Part shown: piece by piece, positions 15,954 through 33,609 of the stretch
How the letters are laid out: each line of letters opens with the position of its first letter
Numbering within the stretch: position 1 is the stretch's first letter
DNA from: Rhodoferax sp.
Lineage (GTDB): Bacteria; Pseudomonadota; Gammaproteobacteria; Burkholderiales; Burkholderiaceae_C
DNA: 40,663 nucleotides
Assembly (NCBI GenBank): GCA_013791765.1
Contig: VMTC01000050.1
Span: 1 to 40,663 of the forward strand
Direction: 5' to 3'
Position numbers and translations under genes: made by a program
Notes under the pieces: generated by a model
Told to the model about the DNA's origin: nothing
Database searches by the model: none
What the model saw: the letters and a program-made list of their open reading frames with translations, nothing else

Positions 15954-15972
15954 GGTGTGGCTGGCCCCGCGG

Positions 15973-17304
15973 CTATGGGGCGCCAACGCCCTTGTCGATG
16001 CCGAGCTTGCGCATCTTTTCCCACAGGTTCTTGCGGCTGATGCCCAGCGAGTCGGCGCAGCATTGGATCTGCCATTGGCAGGCACCGAGCGCGCGCATGA
16101 TGAAGTCACGCTCGCATTCGCTCAGATAGTCACGCAAGCTGCTCGCCACATCCTGTTGCCCCGTCAACGGCGGTGCGGGTCGGTCGAACAAAATGTCATG
16201 CGCGATCAGGTTGCCGTCGCTCATCAGGCTGGCGCGCTCCAGCGCGTTCTTGAGTTCCCTGATGTTGCCCGGCCAGGGGTAGGCCGTGAGCGCGTGTTCG
16301 GCCGCGGCGGTCAGACTGGGCACCGGCTTGCCATTGGCAAGCGCAATGTCGGCCAGCAGCGAGCGTGCCAGCGGCAGGATGTCTTCAGGGCGCTCGCGCA
16401 GCGCAGGGATGCGCAGCTCAACCACGTTGATGCGGTAATACAGGTCTTCGCGGAAAGCGCCACTCACCACGCGCTCTTGCAGCACCTGGTGCGTGGCGCA
16501 GACCAGGCGCAAGTCCACTTCAATTGGCGCCTCACCGCCGACCCGCACAATGCGGCGCTCCTGCAGCGCGCGCAGCACCTTCACCTGCATCGGCAGCGGC
16601 ATGTCGCCAATCTCGTCCAGAAACAGCGTGCCACCGTCGGCCTGCTCAAACACGCCTTTCTTGGTGCGCACAGCGCCGGTAAAAGCGCCTTTTTCGTAGC
16701 CAAACAACTCGGCTTCGAGCAGGCTCTCGGTCAGCGCGCCACAGTTGACGGCGATAAACGGTTTGTCGGCGCCCGTGAGCTCGTGCAGCGCCTGCGCGAC
16801 CCGCTCCTTGCCAACGCCGGATTCGCCGGTGATCAGCACCGAGGCGGCGCTGGTTGAAATGCGGCGCAACATGGCGTCAATTTGCTGCATCGCGGGCGAC
16901 TGCCCCAGCCCGCTCGGGCCCAGGTCGCGCTCAGGCGCAAGCAGCGCCTGAAGCTTGTCGATCATCGCGTCCAGATCAAAGGGTTTGGTCAGGTAGTCGT
17001 GGGCCCCTTGCTTGAGCAAGCGCACGGCGGTGTCAATGTCGCCATGGCCGGTCATAAAGATGAACGGCGGCAAGTTACCGCGCAAGGCCTGCAACTGTTC
17101 AAACAACATATCGCCGGTGATGTCGGGCAGACGGATGTCGCTCAGAACCAGGGCGTAATCTCGTTGCTGCAGTGCGGCCAGCGCGGCGGCGCCGGTGCGA
17201 TGCCAGTCAAAGCGCATGCCCTCCAGGCCAAAACGGTCGGCCAGCGATTCGCCCATGATTTCATCGTCTTCAATCAGGCAGATTTGGCGTGGCAGTGGCG
17301 GCAT
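15973..17304 (-). CDS. Sigma-54-dependent response regulator (NtrC family; AioR/ArxR-like)
   Basis: A 443-residue protein: receiver domain (about 1-120, phospho-acceptor Asp near 55 in LSDIRLPD, TKPFD near 100), AAA+ sigma-54 interaction domain (about 140-375, Walker A GESGVGKE, GAFTGA loop intact, LFLDEIGDMP) and a C-terminal Fis-type helix-turn-helix (CADSLGISRKNLWEKMRK). The ATG at 17304 (MPPLPRQICLIEDDE) overlaps the kinase 3' end by about 35 bases. It activates sigma-54 promoters; the divergent molybdoenzyme operon has one at 19972-19987, with palindromic upstream sites. Confidence 0.92.
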   Translation of the reverse strand: MPPLPRQICLIEDDEIMGESLADRFGLEGMRFDWHRTGAAALAALQQRDYALVLSDIRLPDITGDMLFEQLQALRGNLPPFIFMTGHGDIDTAVRLLKQGAHDYLTKPFDLDAMIDKLQALLAPERDLGPSGLGQSPAMQQIDAMLRRISTSAASVLITGESGVGKERVAQALHELTGADKPFIAVNCGALTESLLEAELFGYEKGAFTGAVRTKKGVFEQADGGTLFLDEIGDMPLPMQVKVLRALQERRIVRVGGEAPIEVDLRLVCATHQVLQERVVSGAFREDLYYRINVVELRIPALRERPEDILPLARSLLADIALANGKPVPSLTAAAEHALTAYPWPGNIRELKNALERASLMSDGNLIAHDILFDRPAPPLTGQQDVASSLRDYLSECERDFIMRALGACQWQIQCCADSLGISRKNLWEKMRKLGIDKGVGAP

Positions 17305-18742
17305 GAACGGGTTCCAGGGGAATGATGACGGTAAAGCGGGTGAGCGGGTCGCTTGATTCGGCGCTGATGGTACCGCCCAATTGCGTGACGATCTGGTAAC
17401 AAATCCACAGGCCCAGGCCGTTGCCATGCTCCGAGAAACGGGTGAAGGGCTCGAACAGGCGCGTTAACTGCTGCGGCAAGAGCGGTATGCCCGTGTTTTC
17501 AACCACCAGCACGAAGCGCGTTTCGCTGGCCAAGGCCCGCACCGCCACCTGACCGCCAGGGCCGGCCGCTGCAATGGCGTTAAGCAACAGGTTAATGAGC
17601 ACTTGGCGCACCAAGGTAGAAGGCAAAGGCAGTGCGCCGGGCAGTGCCGCCACCCAGGACAGCCGCGTGCCCTGCTTGTTGGCCGCGGGCGTGACCAGAA
17701 TGCGAACGTCGTCCAGGTCGGCGCCGCCCAACGGGCGACTTTTGACTTTGGCCTCCACCAGCAGCGCGGCGACGGTTTCGCGGATCTGCGACAGACCGCG
17801 CTCCAGCAGCGACACGGTCTTTTGCGTCACCGGGTCCGGGTGGCCATGGCGCTTGAGCGTGCTGATGGCGTTGAGCATGCCGCCCAGTGGGTTGTTGATT
17901 TCGTGTGCAATGCTGGCCGTCAGCCGCCCCACTGCAGCCATGCGTTCGCTCTTGATCATTTCTTTTTCAAGCTCGGCCTTTTCCCGGAACTTGGCCAGCA
18001 CGGTTTCATAAGCCAGAAAAAGCTGGCCCGCTTCGTCCTGGTAGCGGTAGAGCGCCGGGTCCAGCACCTCAAGGTCGTCGCTGCCGATGCGGCGGATGCG
18101 CTCGGTCACCAACCGCATCGGCAGCATCATGCGGTGCCCCCAGTAGGCTGTAATGGGCAGCAGCACGCACAGCACCAGCAAGGTGATCCAAAGCGAGTGG
18201 ATCAAAGTCAACTCAAAACGTTGCCACAGCAGGGACTTGTTGTAAGACACGATCAAGGTGCCCAGGCGCACGCCGTCATTGCTGATCGGCACGGCCACGT
18301 CAATGCGCTGGGCGCTGCTTGCATCGCGCACAAAAATGGCCGCGTCCGACGCCATGGGCAGCACGCGATCGAGCGCTGCAAAGTCGGTGTCCAGGGAGGC
18401 CAGCGGGCTGAGCACCGGGTGCTCTTCGGGGTGGGACGACACATAAACCCGGCGCGCACTGTCGAGCACGATCAGGCCTTCAGCCAGTGCGGTGCCGGGG
18501 TTGGCGGCAAAGGGCAGTGAAACGGCCTCAAAAGCACCCCACACGTTGTCATGCAGGATCAGGGGAAATAACGAATGCGCCATGCTGCGCCCCAGGTCCT
18601 GCGCGCTCTTCAGCAGGTCTTCATTGAGGCTGTCCCAAGCCTGCACGATGAAAGACGTTGACAGCGCAAGCGCGGTCGCCACGATCAGGCCGCCGCCCCA
18701 AAGCGGCAGCTTGAAGCGCAAGCTGAGGTGAAACAGGCGCAT
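17270..18742 (-). CDS. Membrane sensor histidine kinase (AioS/TtrS-like)
   Basis: A 490-residue protein with two membrane helices (about 10-32 and 180-203) flanking a periplasmic sensor region, a HAMP-like linker, HisKA with SIAHEINNPLGGML (His near 280), and HATPase_c with LINLLLNAIAAAG and GNGLGLWICYQI. It probably senses through the periplasmic binding protein encoded just before it; their genes overlap by four bases (ATGA). It should phosphorylate the downstream sigma-54 regulator. Confidence 0.9.
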   Translation of the reverse strand: MRLFHLSLRFKLPLWGGGLIVATALALSTSFIVQAWDSLNEDLLKSAQDLGRSMAHSLFPLILHDNVWGAFEAVSLPFAANPGTALAEGLIVLDSARRVYVSSHPEEHPVLSPLASLDTDFAALDRVLPMASDAAIFVRDASSAQRIDVAVPISNDGVRLGTLIVSYNKSLLWQRFELTLIHSLWITLLVLCVLLPITAYWGHRMMLPMRLVTERIRRIGSDDLEVLDPALYRYQDEAGQLFLAYETVLAKFREKAELEKEMIKSERMAAVGRLTASIAHEINNPLGGMLNAISTLKRHGHPDPVTQKTVSLLERGLSQIRETVAALLVEAKVKSRPLGGADLDDVRILVTPAANKQGTRLSWVAALPGALPLPSTLVRQVLINLLLNAIAAAGPGGQVAVRALASETRFVLVVENTGIPLLPQQLTRLFEPFTRFSEHGNGLGLWICYQIVTQLGGTISAESSDPLTRFTVIIPLEPVHAATATPNLPD

Positions 18743-19596
18743 CAGCGATTGTCAACCAGGCGCATCATCTCGGAGACGCTGTCGTAGAGTTTGGGCGATC
18801 CCTCGATGAAGCCATCAAGCTTGAGGCGGGTCAACAGGGCTCGGCCCTGCTCGTTGTTCTTCATGTCCATCAGGACGCTTTGCATGCGCAAAAAATCAAC
18901 CTCAGACACATTTTTTTGGGCCACCATCGGCGGAAAACCATAGTCTGGTGATCTCCAGGCAATGCGGGTCTTGGCGGTGATGTCCGGGCGCACCTTGTTC
19001 AATACATCCCACACATAGCTGTCCACCGCAGCGCCTTGAGACAATCCCGCCGCCACGGCGTCAATGGCTTTGCGGTGCGACCATGTGAAAAACGTGCGTT
19101 TGAAAAAAGTGGCGGGGTTGGCGCCGCGGCGCTTGATCTCAAAACGCGGCACCAGATAACCGGTATTCGAGTAGGGGTCGGCATAGGCAAAGACCGCGCC
19201 TTGGAGATCGCCGACGCTGGTCGTTCGGGTGTCTCGCGCCGGGACAATCAGGTAAGAGCGGTAGGTCGGTTGCCCCTCGTTGAGGGCCACCGCCAGCAGG
19301 CGAACCTCATCTTTGAGCATCACGTAAGGGTAGTCGCAGAGCCACGCGAACTCGACCTTTTGCTGGTTCAGCAAGTCCATGGTCTCGCGGTAGCGGTCGC
19401 GCTGAACAAACTCAACCGGGCGCTTTAAACGGACTTCCAGATAGCCACGCCATTCAGCCAGCAGGGCGTGCTGGTCATGCAAGAAAGCCGGTGTCATGGC
19501 GAAGCGGATGACCTGCGGGTTCGCGCCGGCCTGCGCGCCCAAGCACGCCAGGCCAAACCAAAGGGAGATCAGTAAGCACTTGACTATTTTTGACAT
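18742..19596 (-). CDS. PhnD-type periplasmic binding protein, sensory partner (AioX/ArxX-like)
   Basis: A 284-residue protein with a signal peptide (KIVKCLLISLWFGLACLGAQAGA) and a phosphate/phosphonate-binding (PhnD, PF12974) fold: IRFAMTPAFLHDQHALLAEW, then VEFAWLCDYPYVM and AYADPYSNTGYLVP. No ABC permease or ATPase is nearby; instead it leads a kinase/regulator operon, as in AioXSR and ArxXSR, where the binding protein senses arsenite, and by analogy in TtrSR, where a similar domain is fused to the kinase. Ligand here is unknown. A GTTACC palindrome (19608-19623) lies 11 bases upstream of the ATG, suggesting autoregulation. Confidence 0.85.
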   Translation of the reverse strand: MSKIVKCLLISLWFGLACLGAQAGANPQVIRFAMTPAFLHDQHALLAEWRGYLEVRLKRPVEFVQRDRYRETMDLLNQQKVEFAWLCDYPYVMLKDEVRLLAVALNEGQPTYRSYLIVPARDTRTTSVGDLQGAVFAYADPYSNTGYLVPRFEIKRRGANPATFFKRTFFTWSHRKAIDAVAAGLSQGAAVDSYVWDVLNKVRPDITAKTRIAWRSPDYGFPPMVAQKNVSEVDFLRMQSVLMDMKNNEQGRALLTRLKLDGFIEGSPKLYDSVSEMMRLVDNR

Positions 19597-19607: not shown

Positions 19608-19623
19608 GTTACCAGGTGGTGAC
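19608..19623. promoter_or_regulatory. Upstream activator palindrome, site 1
   Basis: GTTACCAGGTGGTGAC, one base off a perfect GTTACC-N4-GGTAAC palindrome. It lies close to the start of the binding-protein gene, probably over its promoter. Confidence 0.65.
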
Positions 19624-19647
19624 ATCAGTCAAAGTTTGTTGGCTCAG

Positions 19648-19663
19648 GTTACCAGACGGTAAC
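19648..19663. promoter_or_regulatory. Upstream activator palindrome, site 2
   Basis: GTTACCAGACGGTAAC, a perfect 6-4-6 palindrome centred exactly 40 bp from site 1. It is a likely binding site for the NtrC-type regulator encoded at 15973. Confidence 0.7.
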
Positions 19664-19806
19664 TTCTCGTTGGCCGCCACGGGCAACCCGGTGGTCTAAG
19701 ACGTGGAAGCCTGAAAGCCAAGTGAATTTTAGCGATTGATGTCTGTGCAGCATTCGGCGCGGTGGCCATGCCCCGGCTAAGAAACCCGCATTGGCGCTGT
19801 CCACCT

Positions 19807-19822
19807 GTTACCAACGGGTAAC
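19807..19822. promoter_or_regulatory. Upstream activator palindrome, site 3
   Basis: GTTACCAACGGGTAAC, a perfect 6-4-6 palindrome about 160 bp upstream of the sigma-54 promoter, a normal enhancer distance for NtrC-type activators. Confidence 0.7.
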
Positions 19823-19971: not shown

Positions 19972-19987
19972 TGGCATGGAGTTTGCA
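19972..19987 (+). promoter_or_regulatory. Sigma-54 (-24/-12) promoter of the molybdoenzyme operon
   Basis: TGGCATGGAGTTTGCA matches the consensus TGGCACG-N4-TTGCA with one mismatch and correct GG/GC spacing. It lies 185 bp upstream of the molybdoenzyme start, on the same side as the NtrC-type enhancer palindromes. Confidence 0.75.
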
Positions 19988-20121: not shown

Positions 20122-20172
20122 CATAGCGTGTCGCCAAGGCGATAGGGTCGAATTTCACACTAGGAGCATGGC

Positions 20173-22728
20173 ATGAAGCTGACAAGACGAATTTTCATCA
20201 TGGCATCGGGCATTTCTGCCGGGTCGCTAATCACGGGGCGCGTCGGTATGGCGGCGCAGCCCATCCACAGCGCGCTGATCCCGCGCAAGGCAAAACCCAG
20301 CAGCCCGGCGGTTGGCACTTGGGTTGCCAGCACCTGCCAGGGCTGTACCCAATGGTGCGCAGTCCAGATTTTGGTTCAGAACGGTCGTGCCACCCGCGTG
20401 CGCGGCAACCCGCTGTCAAAAACCAACCATGGTTATGTCTGCCCGCGTGGCCACATGATTCCGCAGCAGATGTATGACCCAGACCGCATCAAGACCCCCA
20501 TGAAGCGCACCAACCCACTCAAGGGCCGGGGCATTGATCCGAAGTTTGTGCCGATCTCCTGGGACGAAGCGCTTGACACCGTCGCCGAAAAAATGATGGA
20601 ACTGCGCCGCGCCGGTGAGCCGGGCAAGCTGATGTACATGCGCGGTCGCTATTCGTCTACGAGCACCAGTTTGTTGTACGGCACCTTGCCCAAGGTGTGG
20701 GGCACGGCCAACTATTTCTCACACAGTTCCATCTGTGCCGAAGCCGAAAAAATGGGACCTGGCCTGACGCAGGGCTTTTTTGGCTACCGCGACTACGACC
20801 TTGGCAACACCAACTGCCTGGTGGCGTGGGGCTGCGACCCGCTGAGTTCCAACCGCATGGTGCCCAACACCATGAACCACTTTGCAGACATCGTAAAACG
20901 TGGCACCGTGATCGCCATTGACCCGCGCATGTCCACAATCGCCGCCAAGGCGCACGAGTGGCTGCCCATCAACCCGGGCACCGACGGTGCATTGGCCGGT
21001 GCCGTTGCCCATGTGTTGTTAACAGAAGGCATGTGGAGCCGCGAGTTTGTGGGTGACTTCGTGAATGGCAAAAACCTGTTTGTGGCTGGCCAGACCATCG
21101 ATGAGGCGGCCTTTGTAGAGAAGGAAACCAATGGTGTCATCAAGTGGTGGAACCTGGAACTCAAAGACCGCACACCTGCCTGGGCTGCAAAAGAAACGCT
21201 GATTCCCGTAGAGCAGATTTTGCGTGTTGCCCGCGCCATGGGTAAAGCCGGCTCCAAGACGGCGGTCTGGATGGGCCCGGGTGTGGCCATGAACCCGCGC
21301 GGCACCTACACCGCCATGGCGGTGCACGCACTCAATGGCTTGTTGGGGTCGATTGATGCCGAGGGCGGTGTCTGGCAGAGCAGCAGCGTGCCGCTGGGCA
21401 AATTCCCAAGTGCCGATAAATATGTTGACGACGTTGCAAAAGCGGCCGGCAAAGGCAAGAAGCTCGATGGGCGCGGCGCCAAAGACATGCCGGCCATGAT
21501 GAATGCCAAGCCCGGCAGTGGCGTGGTGACCAACAACGTGGCCAACGGCCTGCTCAAGGACCCCGGTGCGGTCAAGGTGTTTATTTCATCCTGGTCCAAC
21601 TTCAACTTTTCCTGCACTGGCGCTGGCCGTTGGGACGAAGCCATGGCCAAAGTGCCTTTCTTTGTGCACATGGTGCCCAACGTTTCCGAGATGACGCAGT
21701 TTGCCGACATCGTGCTGCCCTCAACCTTCAACTCGGCTGAGGGTTGGTCAATCATCACGAACGCGGGCAACGGCCATGGCTACGCCTCCATCCAGCAAGC
21801 CGCCGTCAAACGCTTGTGGGACGTCAAGCAAGAAGAAACCGAAGTGATGTGGTTGTTGGCTGAAAAGCTCAAAGCCAAAGGGTTTGCCAACTTGTTTGAT
21901 TACTACTCGAAGGAATTCATAGACCCTGAAACTGGCAAATTGCCTACCACGGCCATGGAATTCAGCGAGATCGCAGCCAAGATCAGCAGTGCCACGCTGT
22001 GGATGCCCAAGGAGCCGCTGAAAGGCGACCCGGCCATCAACGGTTGGGCCGACTTCAAGGCCAAGGGCATGTTCAGTGGCCCCAAATACACGCTCAAAAA
22101 GGGCTGGGGTGGCAAATTTGCAACCGAGACCAAGAAGTTTGAGTTCTACAGCGAAACCCTTAAAAAGGGCTTGCTGGAGCACGCCAAAAAGTACGAGACC
22201 ACAACCGACGACATCATGACGGTCAGCGGATACACGGCGCGTGGTGACGTGGCCTTTATGCCGCACTACGAGCCCGTCAAGCGCCACGGCAGCGTGGCAG
22301 ACTACCCGTTCACCTTCATCGACTACAAGTCGCGTCTGAACCGCGAAGGTCGCTCGGCCAACATCACCTGGTACCAGGAGTTCAAGAAGGTTGACCCGGG
22401 TGATGTGTCTTGGGGTGATGTGGTCAAAATGAACCCGCTGGACGGGGCCAAATTCGGCCTCAAGTCGGGTGACAACGTGACGATCACCTCCATGGCTGGC
22501 ACGATCAGTTGCCAACTTAAGCTGTGGGAGGGCGTGCGCCCCGGCACCGTGGCTAAATGTTTTGGCCAGGGGCACTGGGCTTATGGCCGCGTGGCCACCA
22601 AAGACTTTGCCAAAGCGATTCCTCTTGGCGGAAACAACAACGAAATTCTGGTCGATGACTATGACCGGCTCAGCGGTGCCACAGCCCGCAACGGTGGTTT
22701 CACCGGCGTTCGCATTCAAAAGGCCTGA
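20173..22728 (+). CDS. Molybdopterin oxidoreductase catalytic subunit, ArrA/ArxA/PsrA group, Tat-exported
   Basis: An 851-residue DMSO-reductase-family enzyme with a Tat signal (TRRIFIM). N-terminal 4Fe-4S ligands are C55, C58, C62 and C90. The molybdenum ligand is predicted as C188 in SHSSICAEAEK. Residues known at the active site of Shewanella ArrA (Arg165, Tyr166, His189, Cys193, Lys198, Tyr210) align here as R159, Y160 (RGRY), H184, C188, K193 and Y205 (GYRDYD). RGRY is the ArrA-type motif, not the GRGWG-type I recall for ArxA. Length equals ArrA (~854). It should be periplasmic with bis-MGD. Neighbours (FeS subunit, TorD chaperone, MobB) fit. Arsenate reductase is the best guess, but sulfur-compound reduction by a related clade is not excluded. 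AGGAG precedes the ATG. Confidence 0.85.
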   Translation: MKLTRRIFIMASGISAGSLITGRVGMAAQPIHSALIPRKAKPSSPAVGTWVASTCQGCTQWCAVQILVQNGRATRVRGNPLSKTNHGYVCPRGHMIPQQMYDPDRIKTPMKRTNPLKGRGIDPKFVPISWDEALDTVAEKMMELRRAGEPGKLMYMRGRYSSTSTSLLYGTLPKVWGTANYFSHSSICAEAEKMGPGLTQGFFGYRDYDLGNTNCLVAWGCDPLSSNRMVPNTMNHFADIVKRGTVIAIDPRMSTIAAKAHEWLPINPGTDGALAGAVAHVLLTEGMWSREFVGDFVNGKNLFVAGQTIDEAAFVEKETNGVIKWWNLELKDRTPAWAAKETLIPVEQILRVARAMGKAGSKTAVWMGPGVAMNPRGTYTAMAVHALNGLLGSIDAEGGVWQSSSVPLGKFPSADKYVDDVAKAAGKGKKLDGRGAKDMPAMMNAKPGSGVVTNNVANGLLKDPGAVKVFISSWSNFNFSCTGAGRWDEAMAKVPFFVHMVPNVSEMTQFADIVLPSTFNSAEGWSIITNAGNGHGYASIQQAAVKRLWDVKQEETEVMWLLAEKLKAKGFANLFDYYSKEFIDPETGKLPTTAMEFSEIAAKISSATLWMPKEPLKGDPAINGWADFKAKGMFSGPKYTLKKGWGGKFATETKKFEFYSETLKKGLLEHAKKYETTTDDIMTVSGYTARGDVAFMPHYEPVKRHGSVADYPFTFIDYKSRLNREGRSANITWYQEFKKVDPGDVSWGDVVKMNPLDGAKFGLKSGDNVTITSMAGTISCQLKLWEGVRPGTVAKCFGQGHWAYGRVATKDFAKAIPLGGNNNEILVDDYDRLSGATARNGGFTGVRIQKA

Positions 22729-22758
22729 TCGCCGTCAACAAGTACAGGAGTAAATATC

Positions 22759-23574
22759 ATGACAAGACTTGGAATGGTCATTGACCTTGCAAAATGCAAC
22801 GGCTGCGGCGCTTGCGCCTTTGCGTGTAAAGCCGAAAACAACACCCGTGACCGAGGCGACGATCAAAGCTTCAACTGGGCTGATTTTTTGATGAAGACCG
22901 AGGGCACGTTCCCTAACACCACACATTCGGTTATACCGGTGCTGTGCAACCATTGTTCGGACGCACCTTGCGTCAAAATTTGTCCTGGCAATCCGGAGAA
23001 AGCGGGCAATCCCAAGAGGTCTCCAAAAGGCAAGCCCTGGAAAGCGCTTTACAAGACGCCAGAGGGCATCACCCTGCACGACCCCGCCCTGTGCATTGGC
23101 TGTGGCGATTGCCAAACGGCATGCCCCTACAGCGTGCCCAGACTCGATGCCTCCAGCCTGCACGGCGGTAGCTACAGCATCATCAGCCTCAACACATCGG
23201 GTGAAGACCCGCAACCACGCTGGTCCGACAAAACATCGGCCGTACCCGGTTGCACATCCTCCGGTGCAGAGGTTGCAGCCCTGGCAGGGGCAGTGCCGCC
23301 CATGTTGAATCAGTGGAAAGGCGGTGACGTGCAACCAGTGCGCACGGACGACGTGATTGAAAAGTGCACCTTCTGCTACCACCGTGTGCTCAACGGTTTG
23401 CAGCCCGCCTGCGTAGAGGTTTGCCCGTCCAAGGCGCGCATTTTTGGTGACCAGGAAGATTCGAAGAGCGAAATTGCCAAGATTTTGAAGAACGAAAAGT
23501 CGTGGCGTTTGCTGGAAGAGAAGGGCACCAAGCCCAATGTGCACTATATTGGCAAGTACAGCCCCAGGGCTTGA
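22759..23574 (+). CDS. 4Fe-4S ferredoxin-type electron-transfer subunit (ArrB/PsrB/TtrB-like)
   Basis: A 271-residue protein with four cysteine clusters: CNGCGACAFACK, CNHCSDAPCVKICP, CIGCGDCQTACP, and CTFC with PACVEVCP, so four 4Fe-4S centres. No signal peptide, as usual for subunits co-exported with a Tat-bearing partner. It should pass electrons from the cytochromes to the molybdoenzyme. The start follows the catalytic gene by 30 bases with AGGAG. An insert of about 60 residues lies between clusters 3 and 4 (SLHGGSYSIISLNT region). Confidence 0.9.
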   Translation: MTRLGMVIDLAKCNGCGACAFACKAENNTRDRGDDQSFNWADFLMKTEGTFPNTTHSVIPVLCNHCSDAPCVKICPGNPEKAGNPKRSPKGKPWKALYKTPEGITLHDPALCIGCGDCQTACPYSVPRLDASSLHGGSYSIISLNTSGEDPQPRWSDKTSAVPGCTSSGAEVAALAGAVPPMLNQWKGGDVQPVRTDDVIEKCTFCYHRVLNGLQPACVEVCPSKARIFGDQEDSKSEIAKILKNEKSWRLLEEKGTKPNVHYIGKYSPRA

Positions 23575-23598
23575 CAATTTTTGTTGCCAATTGCCGCA

Positions 23599-23624
23599 GG
23601 GGCCGGGTTGACCGGCCCCTTTTT
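23599..23624 (+). terminator. Intrinsic-terminator-like hairpin inside the operon
   Basis: GGGGCCGG, a 5-base loop, CCGGCCCC, then TTTTT. It stands between the FeS subunit and the TorD gene, whose ribosome site (AAGGA) follows at once. It may attenuate expression of the downstream genes relative to the enzyme subunits. Confidence 0.75.
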
Positions 23625-23636
23625 CAAGGAAATTTG

Positions 23637-24284
23637 ATGTCTGACTATGCTCCCGACGAAGCCACCGCACGTGCTGACCTGTGCCGTTTCCTGTCTGCCT
23701 GCTACTACGAGCCCGCGCCAGAATTTGCCGAAGAAAACCTGTTTGACTCCCTGCTGGTAGCTACCCGGCAGGTGCACCCTGATCTGGCGGAGCAGGCACG
23801 CAAGTTGGGTGAAGCCTTTGCATCGCAAGACTTGCAGACCTTGCTCGTGGACTACACGCGGCTCTTCCTCGGGCCGATGCAGGCACTGGCCTCTCCCTAT
23901 GGCTCGGCCTGGCTGAACACGCCTGTGCCGACTGAAGGCAATCCGCCCCTGGCCGTACTTGATTTGTACAGTGAAGGCGGCTTTGACATGGATGCTGATT
24001 TCAGGGAGCTGCCAGACCATGTGGCCGTAGAGCTGGAGTTCTTGTACTTGCTTACATTCAACAAAAACCATGCCGATGCTGCTGGCGTGCAAAACGATTC
24101 AGCCACCACCCCCACCACCATCGCAGCGCTGCGTGAGCGTTTTCTGCATGAACACTTGGGCGCCTGGATTGGCCCCTTTGCTGCGGCTGTCAAGGCGAAT
24201 GCAACGACTGATTTTTATCGGGAACTGGCGGATTTAACTGAACGTTTTGTGCGCTTGGAGTCGGCTCAGTTGAGCCTTCATTGA
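23637..24284 (+). CDS. TorD/DmsD-family molybdoenzyme chaperone
   Basis: A 215-residue all-alpha protein with TorD-family features: RADLCRFLSACYYEPAPEF at the N-terminus, DYTRLFLGPMQALASPYGSAW centrally, and PDHVAVELEFLYLLTF. It should bind the Tat signal of the catalytic subunit and aid cofactor insertion before export. The ATG at 23637 has AAGGA 7 bases upstream; the in-frame extension to 23502 lies inside the FeS subunit gene and is rejected. Confidence 0.85.
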   Translation: MSDYAPDEATARADLCRFLSACYYEPAPEFAEENLFDSLLVATRQVHPDLAEQARKLGEAFASQDLQTLLVDYTRLFLGPMQALASPYGSAWLNTPVPTEGNPPLAVLDLYSEGGFDMDADFRELPDHVAVELEFLYLLTFNKNHADAAGVQNDSATTPTTIAALRERFLHEHLGAWIGPFAAAVKANATTDFYRELADLTERFVRLESAQLSLH

Positions 24285-24332
24285 ACTGCTGCTGGCCTAC
24301 CTTGGCAGCCTATACTTTTAATCACAAAAATC

Positions 24333-24497
24333 ATGACTTCCTCGACCACATCGCAACCCCAAAAACACAATCGACTGAAAGACATAGCGCTGTTTCTCGC
24401 ATCGCCCTTCATCGGTCTTGTGTATGCCGTTTTGCTGCCTGGCAAGGTGCTTCAAATTGCCCTGCGTGAACGCAAGGAAAATTCAAAGAATAACTGA
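24333..24497 (+). CDS. 54-residue membrane protein of the molybdoenzyme operon
   Basis: A short frame, MTSSTTSQPQKHNRLKDIAL onwards, with one hydrophobic helix (IALFLASPFIGLVYAVLLPG) and a basic C-terminus (LRERKENSKNN). It fills the gap between the chaperone and the nine-heme cytochrome with no overlap. The pattern resembles small membrane partners of respiratory complexes such as TorE or NapE, but the family is not recognised. No strong ribosome site is visible. Confidence 0.55.
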   Translation: MTSSTTSQPQKHNRLKDIALFLASPFIGLVYAVLLPGKVLQIALRERKENSKNN

Positions 24498-24518
24498 CTC
24501 AGCGATGACCGCTGAGTC
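24496..24518 (+). terminator. Stem-loop between the small membrane protein and cytochrome genes
   Basis: A perfect 9 bp stem GACTCAGCG / CGCTGAGTC with a 5-base loop, followed by GCAGTTTTGCCTTTT. It could be a weak terminator or an mRNA processing or stability element inside the operon. Confidence 0.55.
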
Positions 24519-24554
24519 GCAGTTTTGCCTTTTGTCAACCAAAATTACACGCCA

Positions 24555-25913
24555 ATGAAAAACTTTCACAAAATGCGCGGATGGAATTTGCCCCTGTTCA
24601 AGAACACCATGATGATCTCGGGTCTTCTCTGCCTGGTGCTCTTTTTTGCTGGGTCGGCTCATGCGGCTGAAGCCGAAGCGGCTGAGCTTGGCTCAGAAGA
24701 CAAAGCCTGTCAGAGCTGTCACGACAGTGACGCCATCAAGGCAAAAATTACCGAAGCTGGCGAATCTCTTTCAATGAGGATTTCCACCCAGGCATTCCTC
24801 GCCTCCATGCACAACGAGACCAGTTGCACGGATTGCCATGAAGATGCCGACGGCAAAGATCACGGCAAGGTGTCTGTGCCCATGAAGAGCAAGCGCGACT
24901 ACCGGCTCTCGTTTCAGGATTCCTGCACCACATGTCACAAAAAGAGTGTGGCCGAGTTCAAAGACAGCGTGCATGCGATTCTGGTCAAAGAGGGCAGCGA
25001 CAAGGCGCCCACCTGCTCCGACTGCCACAACCCCCATACGGTGCGCTCGGTCAAACTGGTTGAGCCAATCGCCAATGTGCCGTGCGCCAATTGCCACAAG
25101 GACATTTTCAAAGCGTACTCGCAAGACGTTCACGGGCTTGAGCGCGTTGCCAAAGGCAAGTCAGCCCCCTTGTGTGCTGACTGCCATAAGTCCCATGCAA
25201 TTCAGGCTGCCTCGCTGGGTGATGGCATTCGAGACGCTTGCCTGACCTGCCACAAGGACGCTGCCGTTCAACATGAAGTCTGGCTGCCCAACTCCAGGTT
25301 GCACTTTAAGTCCATCGAATGCCAGGTCTGTCATGCACCCAACGCCCAACGCCGTGTCAACCTCCGAATGGTGGACAGCGTCGGTGGAAAACAACTCGTA
25401 GAGCAAGAGGGCGCGCCGCGATTTGAACGTCTGAGCAAAGCGGTCGATGGCACCGATCGGAACTTGAACGAAAGTGAAATGAGGGGCTTTCTCAAGGCCT
25501 TCAACCTGGAAAGCCCAGACAACAAAGCTGTTCTGAGCGCTCGCCTGGAACTTAGTTCAGGCTTGGAGGCTCATCAACTCAGCACCAAAGACTTGGCACT
25601 CAAAGATTGCCAGGTCTGCCATCGAGCGGGCGCAGCACCTTTTTCGAGCGTGATCCTGACCATGGCGGGGTCCAATGGTCGGGCCTTGCGCCAAGGTATT
25701 GACAATAAAGTGCTGACATCAGCAACCTCTTTTGACTCACTGCGTGGTTTCTATGCCATTGGCAGCACCCGCATCAAGCTGCTGGATTACTTGCTGGTGC
25801 TGGTGATTTTGGGTGTCTTGTGCGTACCGATCGCGCACTTGACCGTAAATCGGCTGTTCAAGGCCAAGCGCGACAAGCTGCGGTCTGAGCGGCAACAGGC
25901 ATCAACAAAATAA
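24555..25913 (+). CDS. Nine-heme c-type cytochrome, C-terminally membrane-anchored
   Basis: A 452-residue protein. The N-terminal signal or anchor is hydrophobic (MMISGLLCLVLFFAGSAHAA). Nine CxxCH motifs are present: CQSCH, CTDCH, CTTCH, CSDCH, CANCH, CADCH, CLTCH, CQVCH and CQVCH, the last separated by a ~90-residue heme-free stretch. A C-terminal helix (LLDYLLVLVILGVLCVPIAHLTV) anchors it, with a basic tail. It is followed 12 bases later by a b-type cytochrome, so the pair likely forms a quinol-oxidising conduit to the periplasmic molybdoenzyme. Start is uncertain; a TTG at 24525 is also possible. Confidence 0.85.
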   Translation: MKNFHKMRGWNLPLFKNTMMISGLLCLVLFFAGSAHAAEAEAAELGSEDKACQSCHDSDAIKAKITEAGESLSMRISTQAFLASMHNETSCTDCHEDADGKDHGKVSVPMKSKRDYRLSFQDSCTTCHKKSVAEFKDSVHAILVKEGSDKAPTCSDCHNPHTVRSVKLVEPIANVPCANCHKDIFKAYSQDVHGLERVAKGKSAPLCADCHKSHAIQAASLGDGIRDACLTCHKDAAVQHEVWLPNSRLHFKSIECQVCHAPNAQRRVNLRMVDSVGGKQLVEQEGAPRFERLSKAVDGTDRNLNESEMRGFLKAFNLESPDNKAVLSARLELSSGLEAHQLSTKDLALKDCQVCHRAGAAPFSSVILTMAGSNGRALRQGIDNKVLTSATSFDSLRGFYAIGSTRIKLLDYLLVLVILGVLCVPIAHLTVNRLFKAKRDKLRSERQQASTK

Positions 25914-25925
25914 CAAGGAACAGCC

Positions 25926-26558
25926 GTGAAAAACATTTACATCCACCCGCTGCCTGTGCGTATCTGGCATTGGCTCAACGCACTGGGGTTCCTGTTGCTG
26001 ATTGCAACAGGCGTGCAAATCAGGTACCTGGATCTGTTTCAGGTGCTCTCGTTCAGAACCGCCGTTGTGACGCACAACTACATTGGTTTTGCGCTGATTG
26101 CCAATTACTTCTTATGGTTGTGTTTTTACCTGTTTACCAACAAGATCACCGTCTACTTGCCAGAGATGAACGCCAAAAAGTACTTTGAGGACTCCTGGCG
26201 GCAACTCAAGTTCTATGGCTACGGCATTTTCCTGGGTGAGGAGAACCCTCACCACCCCACGATCCACCATAAATTCAATCCCCTGCAGATCATGATGTAC
26301 CAGATCATCATGCTGCTGTGCATGCCCATTTTGTTTGTGTCTGGGCTATTGCTATGGGATGTGCAGCAATTCGCGGGCATCGTCAACTTTCTGGGTGGCG
26401 TGCGTGTGGTTGCCAACATTCACGTGCTGATGTTCATTGTGTTCGTGGGTTTCCTGCTCATGCACCTCTACCTGATCACGCTGGGTCACTCGCGGTTTGC
26501 GCACATCAAGGCCATGATCACTGGCTTTGAAGAAGTTCACGACAAACCCAAACCTTAA
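25926..26558 (+). CDS. b-type membrane cytochrome (cytochrome b561/HupC-like)
   Basis: A 210-residue protein with four predicted membrane helices. Likely heme-ligand histidines lie in HPLPVRIWHWLNALGF, VVTHNYIGFAL, NIHVLMFIVF and MHLYLITLGH. It ends IKAMITGFEEVHDKPKP, almost the same ending as the b-type cytochrome at 30599, so the two are paralogues. It probably takes electrons from quinol and passes them to the nine-heme cytochrome encoded just upstream. Confidence 0.85.
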   Translation: MKNIYIHPLPVRIWHWLNALGFLLLIATGVQIRYLDLFQVLSFRTAVVTHNYIGFALIANYFLWLCFYLFTNKITVYLPEMNAKKYFEDSWRQLKFYGYGIFLGEENPHHPTIHHKFNPLQIMMYQIIMLLCMPILFVSGLLLWDVQQFAGIVNFLGGVRVVANIHVLMFIVFVGFLLMHLYLITLGHSRFAHIKAMITGFEEVHDKPKP

Positions 26559-26703
26559 GCTTAGGCTTTTTAGCTCAAATGGTCTGTTCGATGATTTCGA
26601 TCAGGCCATAGATTTTTTTGCCAGCCATCGACGTAATCTGCCGTAGATCTTTCAGTCCAAGTCAACTTTTTGTAGACAGTTGTTTTTTAAAAGGAATTTT
26701 CAA

Positions 26704-27048
26704 ATGTTCAAATTTTCAGTGTCAGCCCTGAGCGCATCAGTTTTGTTTGCACTTGGTGGCATGGCGCCTGCCCATGCCGCCGTTGACGTGGATGCCGCCA
26801 AGGCCCTCGGCAAGAGCAACGATTGCCTTAAATGCCACGCTGCTGACAAAGACAAAAAGGGCCCTTCCATGAAGAAGATCGCCGCCAAGTACAAGGGCAA
26901 GCCCGATGCGCAAGAAAAGCTGATCAAGTCCATGACTGACGGCCACATGGTCAAACTGACCGATGGCACGGAAGAAAAACACAAGGTCATTGACACCAAA
27001 GACCCGAAAGAGTTGAAGAACATCGCTGACTGGTATTTGTCACACTGA
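26704..27048 (+). CDS. Small mono-heme c-type cytochrome
   Basis: A 114-residue protein with signal peptide (FSVSALSASVLFALGGMAPAHA) and one CLKCH motif, then KGPSMKKIAAKYKGKPDAQEKL as in class I cytochromes of the c551/c552 type. The usual WGPxPMPP Met-ligand loop is replaced by DGHMVKLTDGTEEKHK, so the distal ligand is unclear. AAGGA lies 8 bases upstream of the ATG at 26704. The gap 26559-26703 shows no gene; it may hold a separate promoter. Possibly a soluble electron shuttle for the operon. Confidence 0.8.
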   Translation: MFKFSVSALSASVLFALGGMAPAHAAVDVDAAKALGKSNDCLKCHAADKDKKGPSMKKIAAKYKGKPDAQEKLIKSMTDGHMVKLTDGTEEKHKVIDTKDPKELKNIADWYLSH

Positions 27049-27062
27049 TCTCTTCTCAATTG

Positions 27063-28226
27063 GTGTCTTTTTCGACCTCGAATTTGAAAATATTCGGCAT
27101 CGCCGGGTATTCCGGCATGGGCAAGACGACGCTGCTGGAGCGCTTGGTGCCTGAACTCACCGCGCGCGGCCTGGTGGTGTCGCTGATCAAGCACAGCCAC
27201 AAAAATATCGACATCGACCGGCCCGGCAAAGACTCTTATCGCCTGCGTGAATCGGGCTGCAAAGAAGTGCTGCTGCTGGGCAATGACCGCTGGGCGCTGA
27301 TGCACGAGCTGCGCGGCGCGCCCGAGCCCTCGTTGGACTACCTGCTTGACCGGCTGCAGCCCTGTGACCTGGTCTTGATTGAAGGCTTCAAGCACGGTGA
27401 TTTTCCGAAGCTCGAAGTCTGGCGCGCGTCGGTTGGCAAGCCTACCTTGGCGCCTGACTGGCCGGGCATTGTGGCGATTGCCAGCGATGCGCCCTTGCCG
27501 ACAAGCGTACCGGCGGGTCTGACTCAGCTCGACTTGGCGGATGCGTCGTCAATAGCCGCCTTTGTGCTGGCGAACGCAGCCACGCGTTTAGCCCGGTCTG
27601 CGGCTGCCGTGTCGCCGTATGAACCGCCCGATGGTGCCAAGCTGGGTTTGACACCAGAATCCATTTTCACCGAGGCGCTGATCAGTTCCCGGCAAAACAT
27701 TCTGCCCCGGCGCCTGAGTGAACCCGGCCCATCAGCGGCGCAGGTCGAGCAACTGTTTCGCGCCGCCGCTTGCGCGCCGGACCACGGCGAACTGCGGCCT
27801 TGGCGCTTTGTGCTGGTGCCAGCGAGCAAGCGCGCCAATCTGGCGGAAGTTTTTGCCCAAGCCTTGCTGGAGCGCGATGCGCAAGCGACTGCAGAGCAAC
27901 TGGCTCAAGCGCGCGAAAAGGCGCACCGCGCGCCCCTGTTGATGCTGGTGGTGGCCTGCCTGGGGCCGCGTGAGCCCGCTATTCCGACGCTCGAGCGCAT
28001 GGTGTCGGTGGGCTGCGCCATTCAAAACATCTTGCTCACTGCACACAGCATGGCATTTGGCGCAGGCCTGACCAGCGGCCAGGCGATGGCGTCGCCGCAC
28101 ATGCGCAGCCTGTTCCAATTGCTTGCGGGCGAAGAAGCGGTGTGTTTTCTAAATGTGGGTACCACGTCCAAACGCAAAGCACCGCGTCTGCGCCCTGACC
28201 CTGTTGATTTTGTGACGAGCTTGTAA
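27063..28226 (+). CDS. MobB - nitroreductase (YdjA-like) fusion protein
   Basis: A 387-residue protein of two parts. Residues ~1-170 are MobB-like: Walker A GYSGMGKTT, VVSLIKHSHKNIDIDRPGKDS and LVLIEGFKHGDFPKLEVW, the GTP-binding adaptor family in molybdopterin guanine dinucleotide synthesis. Residues ~195-387 resemble the FMN nitroreductase YdjA: APDHGELRPWRFVLVP, AHRAPLLMLVVA, SVGCAIQNILLTAHSMAFGAG and DPVDFVTSL. A fusion of these two is unusual. There is no ATG at the start; GTG at 27063 (or TTG at 27060) follows the cytochrome stop by about 14 bases. It probably supports cofactor maturation of the operon's molybdoenzyme; the role of the nitroreductase part is unknown. Confidence 0.85.
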   Translation: MSFSTSNLKIFGIAGYSGMGKTTLLERLVPELTARGLVVSLIKHSHKNIDIDRPGKDSYRLRESGCKEVLLLGNDRWALMHELRGAPEPSLDYLLDRLQPCDLVLIEGFKHGDFPKLEVWRASVGKPTLAPDWPGIVAIASDAPLPTSVPAGLTQLDLADASSIAAFVLANAATRLARSAAAVSPYEPPDGAKLGLTPESIFTEALISSRQNILPRRLSEPGPSAAQVEQLFRAAACAPDHGELRPWRFVLVPASKRANLAEVFAQALLERDAQATAEQLAQAREKAHRAPLLMLVVACLGPREPAIPTLERMVSVGCAIQNILLTAHSMAFGAGLTSGQAMASPHMRSLFQLLAGEEAVCFLNVGTTSKRKAPRLRPDPVDFVTSL

Positions 28227-28334: not shown

Positions 28335-28703
28335 ATGTCACCCTTTCGGCGCGCCCCCATGACAAAAGCTAAAGAACAAGCCATTCCCTCAGACCTGGAC
28401 CGACCCGATGAGGTGTTTGAGCTCGCGGCCGAGTTGTTTCGGGTGATGTCGGCGCCGATGCGCCTGAAAATCATCAGCTGTCTGTGCGACGGCGAAAAGA
28501 ACGTGAGCTACCTGCTCAGCAAGATTGGCACCACCCAGCCCAATATGTCGCAGCATCTGAACACGCTTTACAAGAACGGCGTGCTCGGCAAACGCCGTGA
28601 CGGCGTGCAAATCTATTACCGCATCACCGACGAGCGCATACCGGCGCTTTGCCGCGCGGTCTGCACCAAGATCGAGACTGAAGGCAGCTTCAAGCCGGCC
28701 TGA
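28335..28703 (+). CDS. ArsR-family transcriptional regulator with two cysteine pairs
   Basis: A 122-residue winged-helix protein: LFRVMSAPMRLKIISCLCDG, recognition helix TTQPNMSQHLNTLYKNGVL, wing KRRDGVQIYYRIT. The classical arsenic motif ELCVCDL is absent. Cysteines 49 and 51 (SCLCDGE) and 106 and 110 (ALCRAVC) sit in the second and last helices, roughly where BigR/SqrR/SoxR-type sulfide or persulfide sensors carry their reactive cysteines. It lies between two respiratory operons and may control one or both. An internal ATG at 28359 is an alternative start. Confidence 0.8.
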   Translation: MSPFRRAPMTKAKEQAIPSDLDRPDEVFELAAELFRVMSAPMRLKIISCLCDGEKNVSYLLSKIGTTQPNMSQHLNTLYKNGVLGKRRDGVQIYYRITDERIPALCRAVCTKIETEGSFKPA

Positions 28704-28861
28704 TCGGCTTCGCCCATTGCCGCCAAACGGCTTTTTGCTCGCAGCCACGTTCAGCTGGCAGGGCGGGCCGATTCATTTTTTTCAGCGACGCAGGCCAAGG
28801 CGGCTAGCAGATCATTGCATTCGTAATTAGGCACGTTCATCCATAAGCACATACCGATACA

Positions 28862-28903
28862 TTGATCTACATCAGAACTTTACACGGGCTTAATCACTAG
28901 TAT
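28862..28903 (+). promoter_or_regulatory. FNR/Anr-type promoter of the octaheme cytochrome operon
   Basis: TTGATCTACATCAG at 28862-28875 matches the FNR box at 9 of 10 positions. A -10-like TAGTAT at 28898-28903 predicts a start near 28910 and places the box at -41.5. It is the same configuration as at 20081, with the same A-to-G end mismatch. The remaining sequence 28704-28861 shows only a weak GCCG/CGGC hairpin followed by TTTTT (28719-28736), a possible terminator of the regulator gene. Confidence 0.65.
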
Positions 28904-28971
28904 TAACCCTAATAGTGTTGCCAGTACGCCATCGCAGCTGGGCACTACCGCTTGTAAAGTAGGAGTTTCTG

Positions 28972-30588
28972 ATGCGTAGTCGATATCTACTGGTTGCCGC
29001 CCTGGCAGCCCTCTTCTTCACCGCGACAGCGCCTGCAGCCACGGAGTCGGCTCCGGCGGCGGCTCCGGCCACGTTGCCCAAGACCACCGCTGACCACAGT
29101 AAGTTCGAGATTCTGAATCAGGATTTTGCTTCCGGCCCTGAGGTGACCAAGGCTTGCCTGAGCTGCCATACCGAGGCGTCCAAACAAATTCACCAGACGC
29201 AGCACTGGAAGTGGGAATTCGTCAACCCTGACACCAAGCAATTGCTGGGCAAGAAACACCTTGTCAACAATTTCTGTACCTCGATCAAAACGAACGAAGC
29301 CGCTTGCAACAGTTGCCATATCGGCTATGGCTGGAAAGACGACACCTTTGACTTCAAGTCGGAAGTAAACGTCGACTGTCTGGCCTGCCATGACAACAGC
29401 GGCAAGTACGCCAAGCCCAGTGGTTTCGCCGGCAACCCGGTCGCCAAGGACACGGAGTATCCTCCCGGTTCGGGCAAGATCATCAAGGGCATCAACCTCA
29501 AGGAAATCGCCCAGAAAGTCGGTCCCTCCTCGCGCAATACCTGCGGTGCCTGCCACTTCAAGGGCGGCGGCGGTGATGGCGTCAAACACGGCGACCTCGA
29601 CAGCTCGCTCGAGTTCCCGGACAAAGACCTTGACGTGCACATGGACACCGAGGGCCTGAACTTTTCGTGCGCAACCTGCCACAAAACCGATGGCCACCTG
29701 GTCACCGGCAGTCGCTACGCGCCTACGGCTCTGGACAAGAACGCAGCCCACATCCGTGGCGCAGCCAACAAGAGCAGCCCCGCGACCTGCCAGGCTTGCC
29801 ACGGCCAGGCTCCGCACAAGCAGGTCAAGCTCAACGATCACACCACCAAGATTGCTTGCCAGACCTGCCACATTCCGGCCTTTGCCCGTGGCGGTATCCC
29901 GACCAAGATGTGGTGGGACTGGTCGACCGCTGGCAAACCCGGCCCTGATGGCAAGTTCCAGACCATCCGCGACGAAAACGACTATGACACTTACATGACG
30001 ACCAAGGGCGACTTCAAGTGGGCCGAGAACGTCACGCCCGAATACGTCTGGTTCAATGGCACCAACAAGTACACCCTGATCACCGACAAGATCGAGAAGA
30101 GCAACCAGCCGATTCAGATCAATGGTTTTGAAGGCAGCGCCACCGACGGCAAGTCGATGATCTGGCCGATCAAGATGTTCCGCGGCAAGCAGCAGTACGA
30201 CCCGATCAACAAGTCGCTGGTGATCACACACCTGGCGGGCAATGACGATACCGCCTACTGGAAGAACCTCGACTGGGTCAAAGCGGTCACGACGGGCATG
30301 GCCAAAGGCGGCGTCAAGTTCTCCGGCGAAGTTGATTTCATCGAAACCCAAAGTATGTGGGCGATCAATCATATGGTAGCGCCCAAGGAAAAAGCTGTGG
30401 GCTGTGTGGAGTGCCACATGAACAACGGCCGGCTCGAAAAGATCGACGGCGTCTACATGCCGGGTCGCAGTCGTGACCATGCCCGCTGGCTTGAAATCGG
30501 TGGCTGGCTTCTTGCCGCCCTGACCCTGGTCGGTGTCTTGGGCCACGGCTTGATCCGCATCGTCGCAAGCAAACGCAATCGTAAATAG
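28972..30588 (+). CDS. Octaheme c-type cytochrome, tetrathionate reductase (OTR) family, membrane-anchored
   Basis: A 538-residue protein with signal peptide (LLVAALAALFFTATAPAA), eight CxxCH motifs (CLSCH at 62-66, CNSCH at 112-116, then CLACH, CGACH, CATCH, CQACH, CQTCH, CVECH) and a C-terminal helix (WLEIGGWLLAALTLVGVLGHGLI). The block HLVNNFCTSIKTNEAACNSCH before heme 2 is the signature of Shewanella-type octaheme tetrathionate reductase, whose catalytic heme is Lys-ligated. Such enzymes reduce tetrathionate, and also nitrite or hydroxylamine in vitro. The membrane anchor and the adjacent b-type cytochrome suggest a quinol-linked reductase or electron conduit. The physiological substrate is uncertain. 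Confidence 0.88.
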   Translation: MRSRYLLVAALAALFFTATAPAATESAPAAAPATLPKTTADHSKFEILNQDFASGPEVTKACLSCHTEASKQIHQTQHWKWEFVNPDTKQLLGKKHLVNNFCTSIKTNEAACNSCHIGYGWKDDTFDFKSEVNVDCLACHDNSGKYAKPSGFAGNPVAKDTEYPPGSGKIIKGINLKEIAQKVGPSSRNTCGACHFKGGGGDGVKHGDLDSSLEFPDKDLDVHMDTEGLNFSCATCHKTDGHLVTGSRYAPTALDKNAAHIRGAANKSSPATCQACHGQAPHKQVKLNDHTTKIACQTCHIPAFARGGIPTKMWWDWSTAGKPGPDGKFQTIRDENDYDTYMTTKGDFKWAENVTPEYVWFNGTNKYTLITDKIEKSNQPIQINGFEGSATDGKSMIWPIKMFRGKQQYDPINKSLVITHLAGNDDTAYWKNLDWVKAVTTGMAKGGVKFSGEVDFIETQSMWAINHMVAPKEKAVGCVECHMNNGRLEKIDGVYMPGRSRDHARWLEIGGWLLAALTLVGVLGHGLIRIVASKRNRK

Positions 30589-30598
30589 GAGAACCTTC

Positions 30599-31219
30599 AT
30601 GTCACGCGTCTATCTCTTTAAACCCTTCGAGCGCTTTTGGCACTGGTGCCAGGCGGCACTGATCATTTTCATGCTGCTGACCGGCTTTGAGGTCCATGGC
30701 ACCTATTCCATCTTTGGCTTCGAAAAAGCGGTCGAATACCACACCATCGCCGCCTGGACGCTGGTGGGGCTGTGGATCTTTGCGATCTTCTGGCATATCA
30801 CCTCTGGCGAATGGCGCCATTACATCCCCACCACGGACAAAATCGTGGCGGTGGCCAACTACTACTCGTCTGGCATTTTCAAGGGCGAAGAGCATCCGTT
30901 TCGTCCCAGCGGCAGCAACAAGCACAACCCCTTGCAGCGCCTGACCTACCTGGCGGTGCTGACGCTGCTCAGTCCGCTGATCTGGGTGAGTGGCTGGCTC
31001 TACCTGTTCTATGCCGACTTGCCGGCCTGGGGCCTGGGTGGCTTGCAGCTGCAATGGATTGCGACTGCCCACACGGCCGGTGCCTTCCTGATGCTGGCCT
31101 TCTTGATCTCGCACCTGTATCTGGCCACCACCGGCCACAAGATCACATCGCAGGTCAAAGCCATGATTACCGGCTGGGAAGACCTGGGTGACGATCACAA
31201 GCCAGGCCAGCCCCGCTAA
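30599..31219 (+). CDS. b-type membrane cytochrome paired with the octaheme cytochrome
   Basis: A 206-residue protein with four membrane helices and likely heme-ligand histidines in RFWHWCQAALI, VEYHTIAAWTLVG, ATAHTAGAFLML and SHLYLATTGH. It ends VKAMITGWEDLGDDHKP, nearly the same as the cytochrome b at 25926, and HNPLQ is also shared, so the two are paralogues. It starts 10 bases after the octaheme gene with AGGAG, so co-translation is likely. It probably oxidises quinol for the octaheme cytochrome. Confidence 0.88.
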   Translation: MSRVYLFKPFERFWHWCQAALIIFMLLTGFEVHGTYSIFGFEKAVEYHTIAAWTLVGLWIFAIFWHITSGEWRHYIPTTDKIVAVANYYSSGIFKGEEHPFRPSGSNKHNPLQRLTYLAVLTLLSPLIWVSGWLYLFYADLPAWGLGGLQLQWIATAHTAGAFLMLAFLISHLYLATTGHKITSQVKAMITGWEDLGDDHKPGQPR

Positions 31220-31263
31220 GGCTGGGCAAAACGTTTCATTGTTGTCATTTTTAGGAGTAGTTC

Positions 31264-33123: not shown

Positions 33124-33197
33124 TTTGACCACCCAAGCGGTTGGGCACAAGCAATTGCGCTCAACGATTATTTAGTCATTTACCAAAGGATTTCACC

Positions 33198-33518: not shown

Positions 33519-33527
33519 ACCAGCACA

Positions 33528-33567
33528 GCCACCCCCACCGTCAAGCGGCCCGGCCACATGGGGTGGC
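33528..33567. other. Stem-loop before the rhodanese genes
   Basis: Arms GCCACCCC (33528-33535) and GGGGTGGC (33560-33567) flank a 24-base GC-rich loop. There is no T run, so this is more likely an mRNA processing or stability element than a terminator. Confidence 0.4.
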
Positions 33568-33609
33568 AGTGCCGGGAAAACGTTCACCTCACACTGAAGG
33601 AGTTCCGTC

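Follow-up and report, generated by a model that had tools for sequence, protein, structure and literature searches.

An ArrA-clade arsenate reductase locus of Rhodoferax adjoining a modular nine-heme cytochrome c/cytochrome b cassette, a candidate quinol dehydrogenase

Introduction

CymA feeds both arsenate and metal respiration in Shewanella, and it is CymA that feeds the arsenate reductase ArrAB of Shewanella sp. ANA-3. Two processes that set arsenic free in sediments, ferric mineral reduction and arsenate respiration, are as a rule regarded as distinct traits. Here we describe a predicted arr locus of Rhodoferax sp. – on a stretch of 40,663 nucleotides (assembly GCA_013791765.1, contig VMTC01000050.1; hereafter the window) – in which genes for an ArrA-clade molybdoenzyme, an ArrB-like subunit and a TorD-family chaperone are followed by a cassette (24333-27048) encoding a nine-heme cytochrome c and a b-type cytochrome. 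The genome, of which the window forms contig C135, measures 4.17 Mb and has an estimated completeness of 100%. The locus resembles the ANA-3 system in the active-site residues and the ArrB partner, and differs in that its genome has no NapC/CymA match and that a TorD gene and a sensor triad lie by arr.

The arr genes have been described in the arsenate-respiring Geobacter sp. OR-1 (PMC4319506), metagenome-assembled genomes (MAGs) of Rhodocyclaceae and Nitrospirae with arrA are reported in PMC6730927, and PMC8290898 reports arsenate-respiring peat enrichments dominated by Rhodoferax, from which no isolate was obtained. In the survey of PMC11283718, 35 genomes of Burkholderiaceae and 19 of Rhodocyclaceae are counted as carrying arrA as an arsenate reductase gene, and Ramlibacter and others are tied to arsenate reduction by stable-isotope probing. 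Burkholderiales arrA is already published, and the downstream cytochrome cassette is the unusual part of the locus. The OR-1 and Burkholderiales clusters share with the window arrAB with TorD and the R/KGRY motif, and have arsenic-resistance-like genes near arr, as do relatives of the window; the gene lists of PMC4319506 and PMC11283718 include arrDE, for TorD and a 4Fe-4S protein, but mention no cassette of the nine-heme/cytochrome b kind, OR-1 being compared by description. ArxA, encoded in arxB2ABCD and belonging to the same larger family, has the signature XGRGWG as against (R/K)GRY in ArrA, and its XSR regulators are usually divergent, according to PMC6549141; the window lacks both XGRGWG and a gene for NrfD (ArxC).

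Quinone oxidoreductases comparable to the cassette have been described. CbcL combines nine c hemes with a HydC/FdnI-like cytochrome b domain, a make-up to which we liken the cassette by composition, and mtrH and mtoC often adjoin mtrAB and mtoAB (PMC6295460, PMC9129911), as the cassette in part adjoins mtr. CbcL, MtrH and MtoC are, as these sources describe them, single fused polypeptides, whereas the window has two separate genes, located by arr. PMC8805035 describes the role of CymA in Mtr and lists, as accessory sets of MtrCAB, CymA, NetBCD, PdsA, MtoC, MtoD and others; the window cassette does not appear among the sets named there.

Results

The predicted catalytic protein has ArrA as its best match in NCBIfam (NF041714) and in the PDB (6CZ7, ArrA of Shewanella sp. 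ANA-3; 905 bits, residues 45-850), which rules out a TtrA-, PsrA- or SerA-like enzyme. A preliminary description of this DNA, made from the letters and open reading frames, had noted ArrA active-site residues, and these are indeed present: RGRY at residues 157-160, SHSSIC followed by K193, and GYRDYD. Among 122 aligned ArrA and ArxA rows of at least 700 residues (four short rows and L056|9 left out), 108 rows, or 97 distinct sequences with the query counted in, have RGRY and 14 have XGRGWG. Seven positions were compared after alignment to 6cz7, and two of them, R165 and the molybdenum ligand C193, we take to be active-site positions. The other five – Y166, H189, S190, K198 and Y210 – are active-site positions in the account of PMC10654088. 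All seven are identical in 108/108 RGRY rows (97/97 distinct sequences), and the position of Y166 is occupied by G in 14/14 ArxA-type rows.

The closest named relatives of the window ArrA are from Rhodoferax MAGs, at no more than 94% identity. Identity falls to 71% with two deltaproteobacterial-type rows (L061, L110), to 48-55% with the farther RGRY rows (48% with the Shewanella-type L102), and to 31-34% with ArxA-type rows; this last range and the lack of XGRGWG rule out an ArxA. Two trees were built, from 75 of 115 rows after thinning and from 40 chosen rows. The 40-row tree separates RGRY from ArxA-type rows with 100/100 support and places the query among Rhodoferax sequences, within a Burkholderiales group close to rows of Geobacteraceae and Nitrospirota; L102, there the sole representative of the well-studied ArrA, branches near the base. 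The 75-row tree points the same way. Assignment of the predicted product as an ArrA-clade arsenate reductase subunit is well supported by these motifs, matches and trees. The new substrate clade raised in the preliminary description, which had called for such a phylogeny, is not borne out: the query falls within the RGRY clade that also holds Shewanella-type ArrA, an AioX/ArrX-type sensor adjoins, and arrA of this kind is already reported in PMC11283718. A Burkholderiales-type ArrA-clade gene is also present in L051, a MAG record titled Bordetella parapertussis isolate MaH-09apr19-245 that is probably mislabelled as to organism.

The window has neither an NrfD- nor a NapC/CymA-type gene, in line with what was first described for the operon, and PF03264 (NapC/NirT/CymA) has no match in the whole genome; E. 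coli alone matches among 14 control genomes. The genome has two NrfD genes, each in another molybdoenzyme cluster. The catalytic protein of one is nearest TtrA (1170 bits, below the cut-off of 1750), and that of the other (L170, contig C7; 881 amino acids) is nearest PhsA (347 bits, below the cut-off of 694). The L170 cluster encodes an Fe-S subunit, NrfD, the catalytic protein and TorD; divergent from these genes is one for a binding protein that shares 36% identity with the arr sensor.

The cytochromes and small membrane protein of the preliminary description were all recovered (Table 1). A single nine-heme match was found in the genome, the one adjoining arr. Six His residues of the cytochrome b are conserved across 16 rows, and its NCBIfam matches are all below cut-offs (PhsC, NF011582, 116 bits against 204). 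An mtr cluster on contig C104 encodes MtrA-like, MtrB and MtrC proteins above cut-offs; the small cytochrome c has two homologues there, by mtrA, but the nine-heme/b pair is missing. A structure model of the nine-heme protein (mean predicted local distance difference test score 35.6) was too poor to use. Plasmid carriage was rejected, since in PLSDB the nine-heme protein had no match at 1e-15 and ArrA none at 1e-100 (three partial, dissimilar hits at 1e-40).

Table 1. Predicted features of the arr locus and its surroundings, with window coordinates
Feature	Position	Strand	Evidence or remarks
NtrC-type sigma-54-dependent response regulator	15973..17427	-	ArrR/ArxR/AioR-like by position
Sensor histidine kinase	17270..18742	-	ArrS/ArxS/AioS-like by position
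Periplasmic AioX/ArrX-family sensor	18742..19596	-	
Three dyads GTTACC-N4-GGTAAC	19608..19822		proposed regulator sites; at 19608 (one mismatch), 19648 and 19807
Sigma-54-type match TGGCATGGAGTTTGCA	19972..19987	+	
ArrA-clade molybdoenzyme catalytic subunit	20173..22728	+	851 amino acids; twin-arginine-like start; motifs, library and PDB match, trees
ArrB-like 4Fe-4S subunit	22759..23574	+	best NCBIfam match ArrB, 222 bits, cut-off 450
TorD-family chaperone	23637..24284	+	open reading frame opens 23502, start 23637 inferred; PF02613 above cut-off
54-amino acid membrane protein	24333..24497	+	first cassette gene; one hydrophobic stretch judged by eye
Inverted repeat	24496..24518		9 pairs, -17.9 kcal/mol; before nine-heme gene; possible attenuator or terminator
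Nine-heme cytochrome c	24525..25913	+	ATG 24555; nine CxxCH motifs; C-terminal membrane helix
PF01292 cytochrome b	25926..26558	+	weakly like HydC, FdnI, PhsC
Small monoheme cytochrome c	26680..27048	+	ATG 26704
MobB fused to nitroreductase-like domain	27060..28226	+	
ArsR-family regulator	28335..28703	+	some BigR likeness; may belong to next module

Homologues of the nine-heme protein were found in 12 of 26 hand-chosen ArrA-clade genomes (11/25 without the window's genome) and in 4 of 299 genomes of a family sample (3/298 likewise). They lie on 16 stretches of 5-17 kb, the window included, and in all 16 the nine-heme gene is followed by one for a cytochrome b. Next to the cassette is arr in 2/16 stretches and a regulator-kinase pair in 8/16; mtrA/mtrB genes lie in at least 4/16 stretches, a lower bound because these are only 5-17 kb long. 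In the nearest relative (L145) the cassette directly follows MtrC-, MtrA- and MtrB-family genes, and mtr genes are near it in L146, L151 and L156 as well, an arrangement that recalls the MtrCAB accessory modules. Rhodoferax sp. U2-2l (L017, L156) has arr, cassette and mtrAB in one co-directional cluster, in the order arrA, arrB, torD, mobB, 54-amino acid gene, nine-heme c, cytochrome b, cytochrome c, MtrA-like and MtrB. The mtr genes examined in L145 and L017 pass the curated MtrC, MtrA-like and MtrB cut-offs.

Gene neighbourhoods were compared at 42 loci, the window counted in, whose flanks reach 3.5 kb or more upstream and 4.5 kb or more downstream. The nine-heme/cytochrome b cassette is by arr in the window and L017 only, and a distant seven-heme/cytochrome b pair lies directly upstream of arrA in L055, L064 and L080, so the cassette is ruled out as a fixed part of the arr operon. 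The preliminary description was right that the arrangement is unlike either arrAB with CymA or arx. A ten-heme cytochrome is by arrA in L065, L066 and L069; the label 'NapC-like' was dropped for it, L066, the sole one tested, having no PF03264. With the seven-heme/b pair in three loci and the ten-heme cytochrome in three, arr partners therefore seem to be exchanged. To judge from its distribution, the cassette is a separate module, partly linked to mtr.

Two further combinations were observed. An ethylbenzene-dehydrogenase-family heme protein accompanies the seven-heme/b pair in L055, L064 and L080 (PF09459 in L080). The RGRY-type enzymes of L010 and L098 have a PF03916 NrfD gene directly upstream, followed by ArrB-like and TorD-like genes, so that an ArrA-type active site goes with a membrane partner of the arx kind.

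Divergent from arrA is a regulator, kinase and sensor triad (15973-19596), which the preliminary description had missed along with ArrB, TorD and the MobB-nitroreductase fusion. The sensor can be placed in the AioX/ArrX/ArxX family, being nearer AioX and ArrX than phosphonate-binding proteins (44 bits at most) and keeping the ligand cysteine: its AWLC aligns with AWIC of AioX, and we read the cysteine as Cys106 of AioX as given in PMC5908839. Three dyads lie between the sensor gene and arrA. Among 76 loci with at least 600 bases upstream (window counted in), the dyad, with up to one mismatch, occurs in 17/17 loci with a divergent sensor, 2/6 with a sensor nearby and 4/53 without one; 48 copies were counted in 53.2 kb upstream of arrA and 16 in 1231 kb elsewhere. 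This enrichment is not an independent test, because the window supplied the motif and the loci are related to one another. A sigma-54-type match also precedes arrA, and was ruled out as a conserved feature since the pattern recurs in 4/16 other divergent-sensor loci. The arr locus is probably switched on by an AioX/ArrX-type sensor with its kinase and a sigma-54 activator, and the dyad array offers a handle on the arr promoter.

The TorD-family product scores 66 bits in NCBIfam, below the cut-off. Further downstream, a second multiheme module occupies 28335-35246, where the ArsR-family/BigR-like regulator, which may belong to it, is joined by an octaheme tetrathionate-reductase-family cytochrome (TIGR04315, 633 bits, above cut-off), another PF01292-like cytochrome b, two rhodanese-like proteins and a DUF3373 protein; octaheme homologues share loci with arr in L034, L050 and L053. 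On the other side, 6317-7715 and 15423-16109 encode an ArsP-family permease, a small thioredoxin-domain protein and a SigZ-like sigma factor. Since relatives also have homologues of these in their arr loci, the arsenic island may extend further. ArxA-type (XGRGWG) and ArrA-type genes occur in one locus in L032, L077 and L082, where genes for arsenate reduction and arsenite oxidation thus share an island.

Discussion

We lean, with modest confidence, towards a reading in which arsenate respiration is fed by a split quinol dehydrogenase that resembles CbcL and MtrH and is common to the Mtr pathway. The arr locus would specify a periplasmic respiratory arsenate reductase, ArrAB, with its TorD chaperone. 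The cytochrome b would oxidise quinol in the inner membrane and hand the electrons to the membrane-anchored nine-heme cytochrome c, from which they would travel, directly or via the small cytochrome c, to ArrB and the ArrA molybdenum site, where arsenate would be reduced to arsenite; we infer both this direction and the contact between cassette and ArrAB from the predicted gene products. The nine-heme/b pair would thus do the job of Shewanella CymA, would also serve the MtrCAB-family conduit, whose genes lie elsewhere in the genome, and may be co-regulated with arr. Because some cassettes are found apart from arr, the grounds for linking this one to ArrAB are adjacency and the missing NapC/CymA match. 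Given a genome without PF03264, NrfD genes that lie elsewhere, a sole nine-heme protein by arr and an mtr cluster on C104 without the pair, one quinol dehydrogenase for both pathways is the economical reading. The new route from quinol to molybdoenzyme suggested in the preliminary description is a candidate reading of the cassette.

Several observations weigh against this proposal. The ArrA match, at 995 bits, does not reach the NF041714 cut-off of 1600, which among the places listed L102 alone passes, and the ArrB match likewise falls below its cut-off. In 34 of the 42 long-flank loci none of the tested membrane quinol modules is near arr. The genomes behind the 11/25 count were hand-chosen and are phylogenetically related, and five other ArrA-clade genomes of apparently the same family sample are not among the nine-heme carriers. 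Rhodoferax ferrireducens has two cymA genes, along with mtrH by mtrABC, in the description of PMC6295460, and relatives may therefore rely on CymA. The sensor is nearer the arsenite-binding AioX (6esk, 213 bits) than ArrX (6x6b, 130 bits) of the PDB, and the signal may therefore be arsenite.

Other points concern the junction of arr and cassette. In the window no GTTACC dyad precedes the cassette. The nearest relative, a MAG with 94% ArrA identity, has arr and cassette on separate contigs: window positions 20152-24259 align in DNA with its arr locus (L014) at 87%, and positions 24360-27048 align with another contig (L145) at 83%, with the switch at 24259-24360. The inverted repeat at 24496-24518 likewise parts arr from the cassette. 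Given the hairpin and the similarity switch, these genes may or may not form the one operon of the preliminary description.

Both features at 24259-24518, and the separate contigs of the nearest relative, fit an ordinary ArrAB fed by a generic periplasmic cytochrome pool, with a cassette that serves Mtr only and came to lie by arr through rearrangement. The adjacency of arr in just two of the 16 cassette stretches, and the regulator-kinase pair in eight, point the same way. Such an arrangement would, however, leave a genome with neither a NapC/CymA match nor a second nine-heme match, and another branch also has a distant multiheme/cytochrome b pair by arrA; we regard it as a possible but less probable account.

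An oxidative direction, with arsenite oxidised and electrons passed to the cytochromes and then out via Mtr or into the quinone pool, would suit the AioX-leaning sensor and the proposal in PMC6295460 that CbcL, MtrH and MtoC run both ways. We consider it quite unlikely, since the motif is RGRY and not the XGRGWG of ArxA, and separate ArxA-type genes accompany the ArrA-type locus in L032, L077 and L082. Least probable of all is a new substrate clade acting on antimonate, selenate, tetrathionate or polysulfide: the missed NCBIfam equivalog cut-off would allow it, and one paper lists ArrA among Sb(V) reductases, so that a second substrate is possible, but against it stand the invariant active-site positions, the place of the protein inside the RGRY clade, the arsenic-type sensor, the ArsP-family permease in the window, and arsenic-resistance-like neighbours in relatives (SBF- and LMWPc-family, here called ACR3 and ArsC).

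The presence of this cassette, the seven-heme/b pair or the ten-heme cytochrome by arrA in different lineages suggests that arr partners are exchangeable. A broader form of the split-dehydrogenase proposal, about which we are doubtful, would make the CbcL-like enzyme a hub that replaces CymA in Rhodoferax-type bacteria and feeds both arsenate reductase and MtrCAB. If so, ferric minerals and the arsenate that they release would be reduced from one and the same electron supply, and in strains such as U2-2l, with arr, cassette and mtrAB in one cluster, outside electrons might even reach ArrAB through Mtr. Burkholderiales make up a large share of the arsenate-reducing population in the mine tailings studied in PMC11283718; if one quinol dehydrogenase serves both pathways in this order, two respirations would be coupled by a single gene set that can be knocked out.

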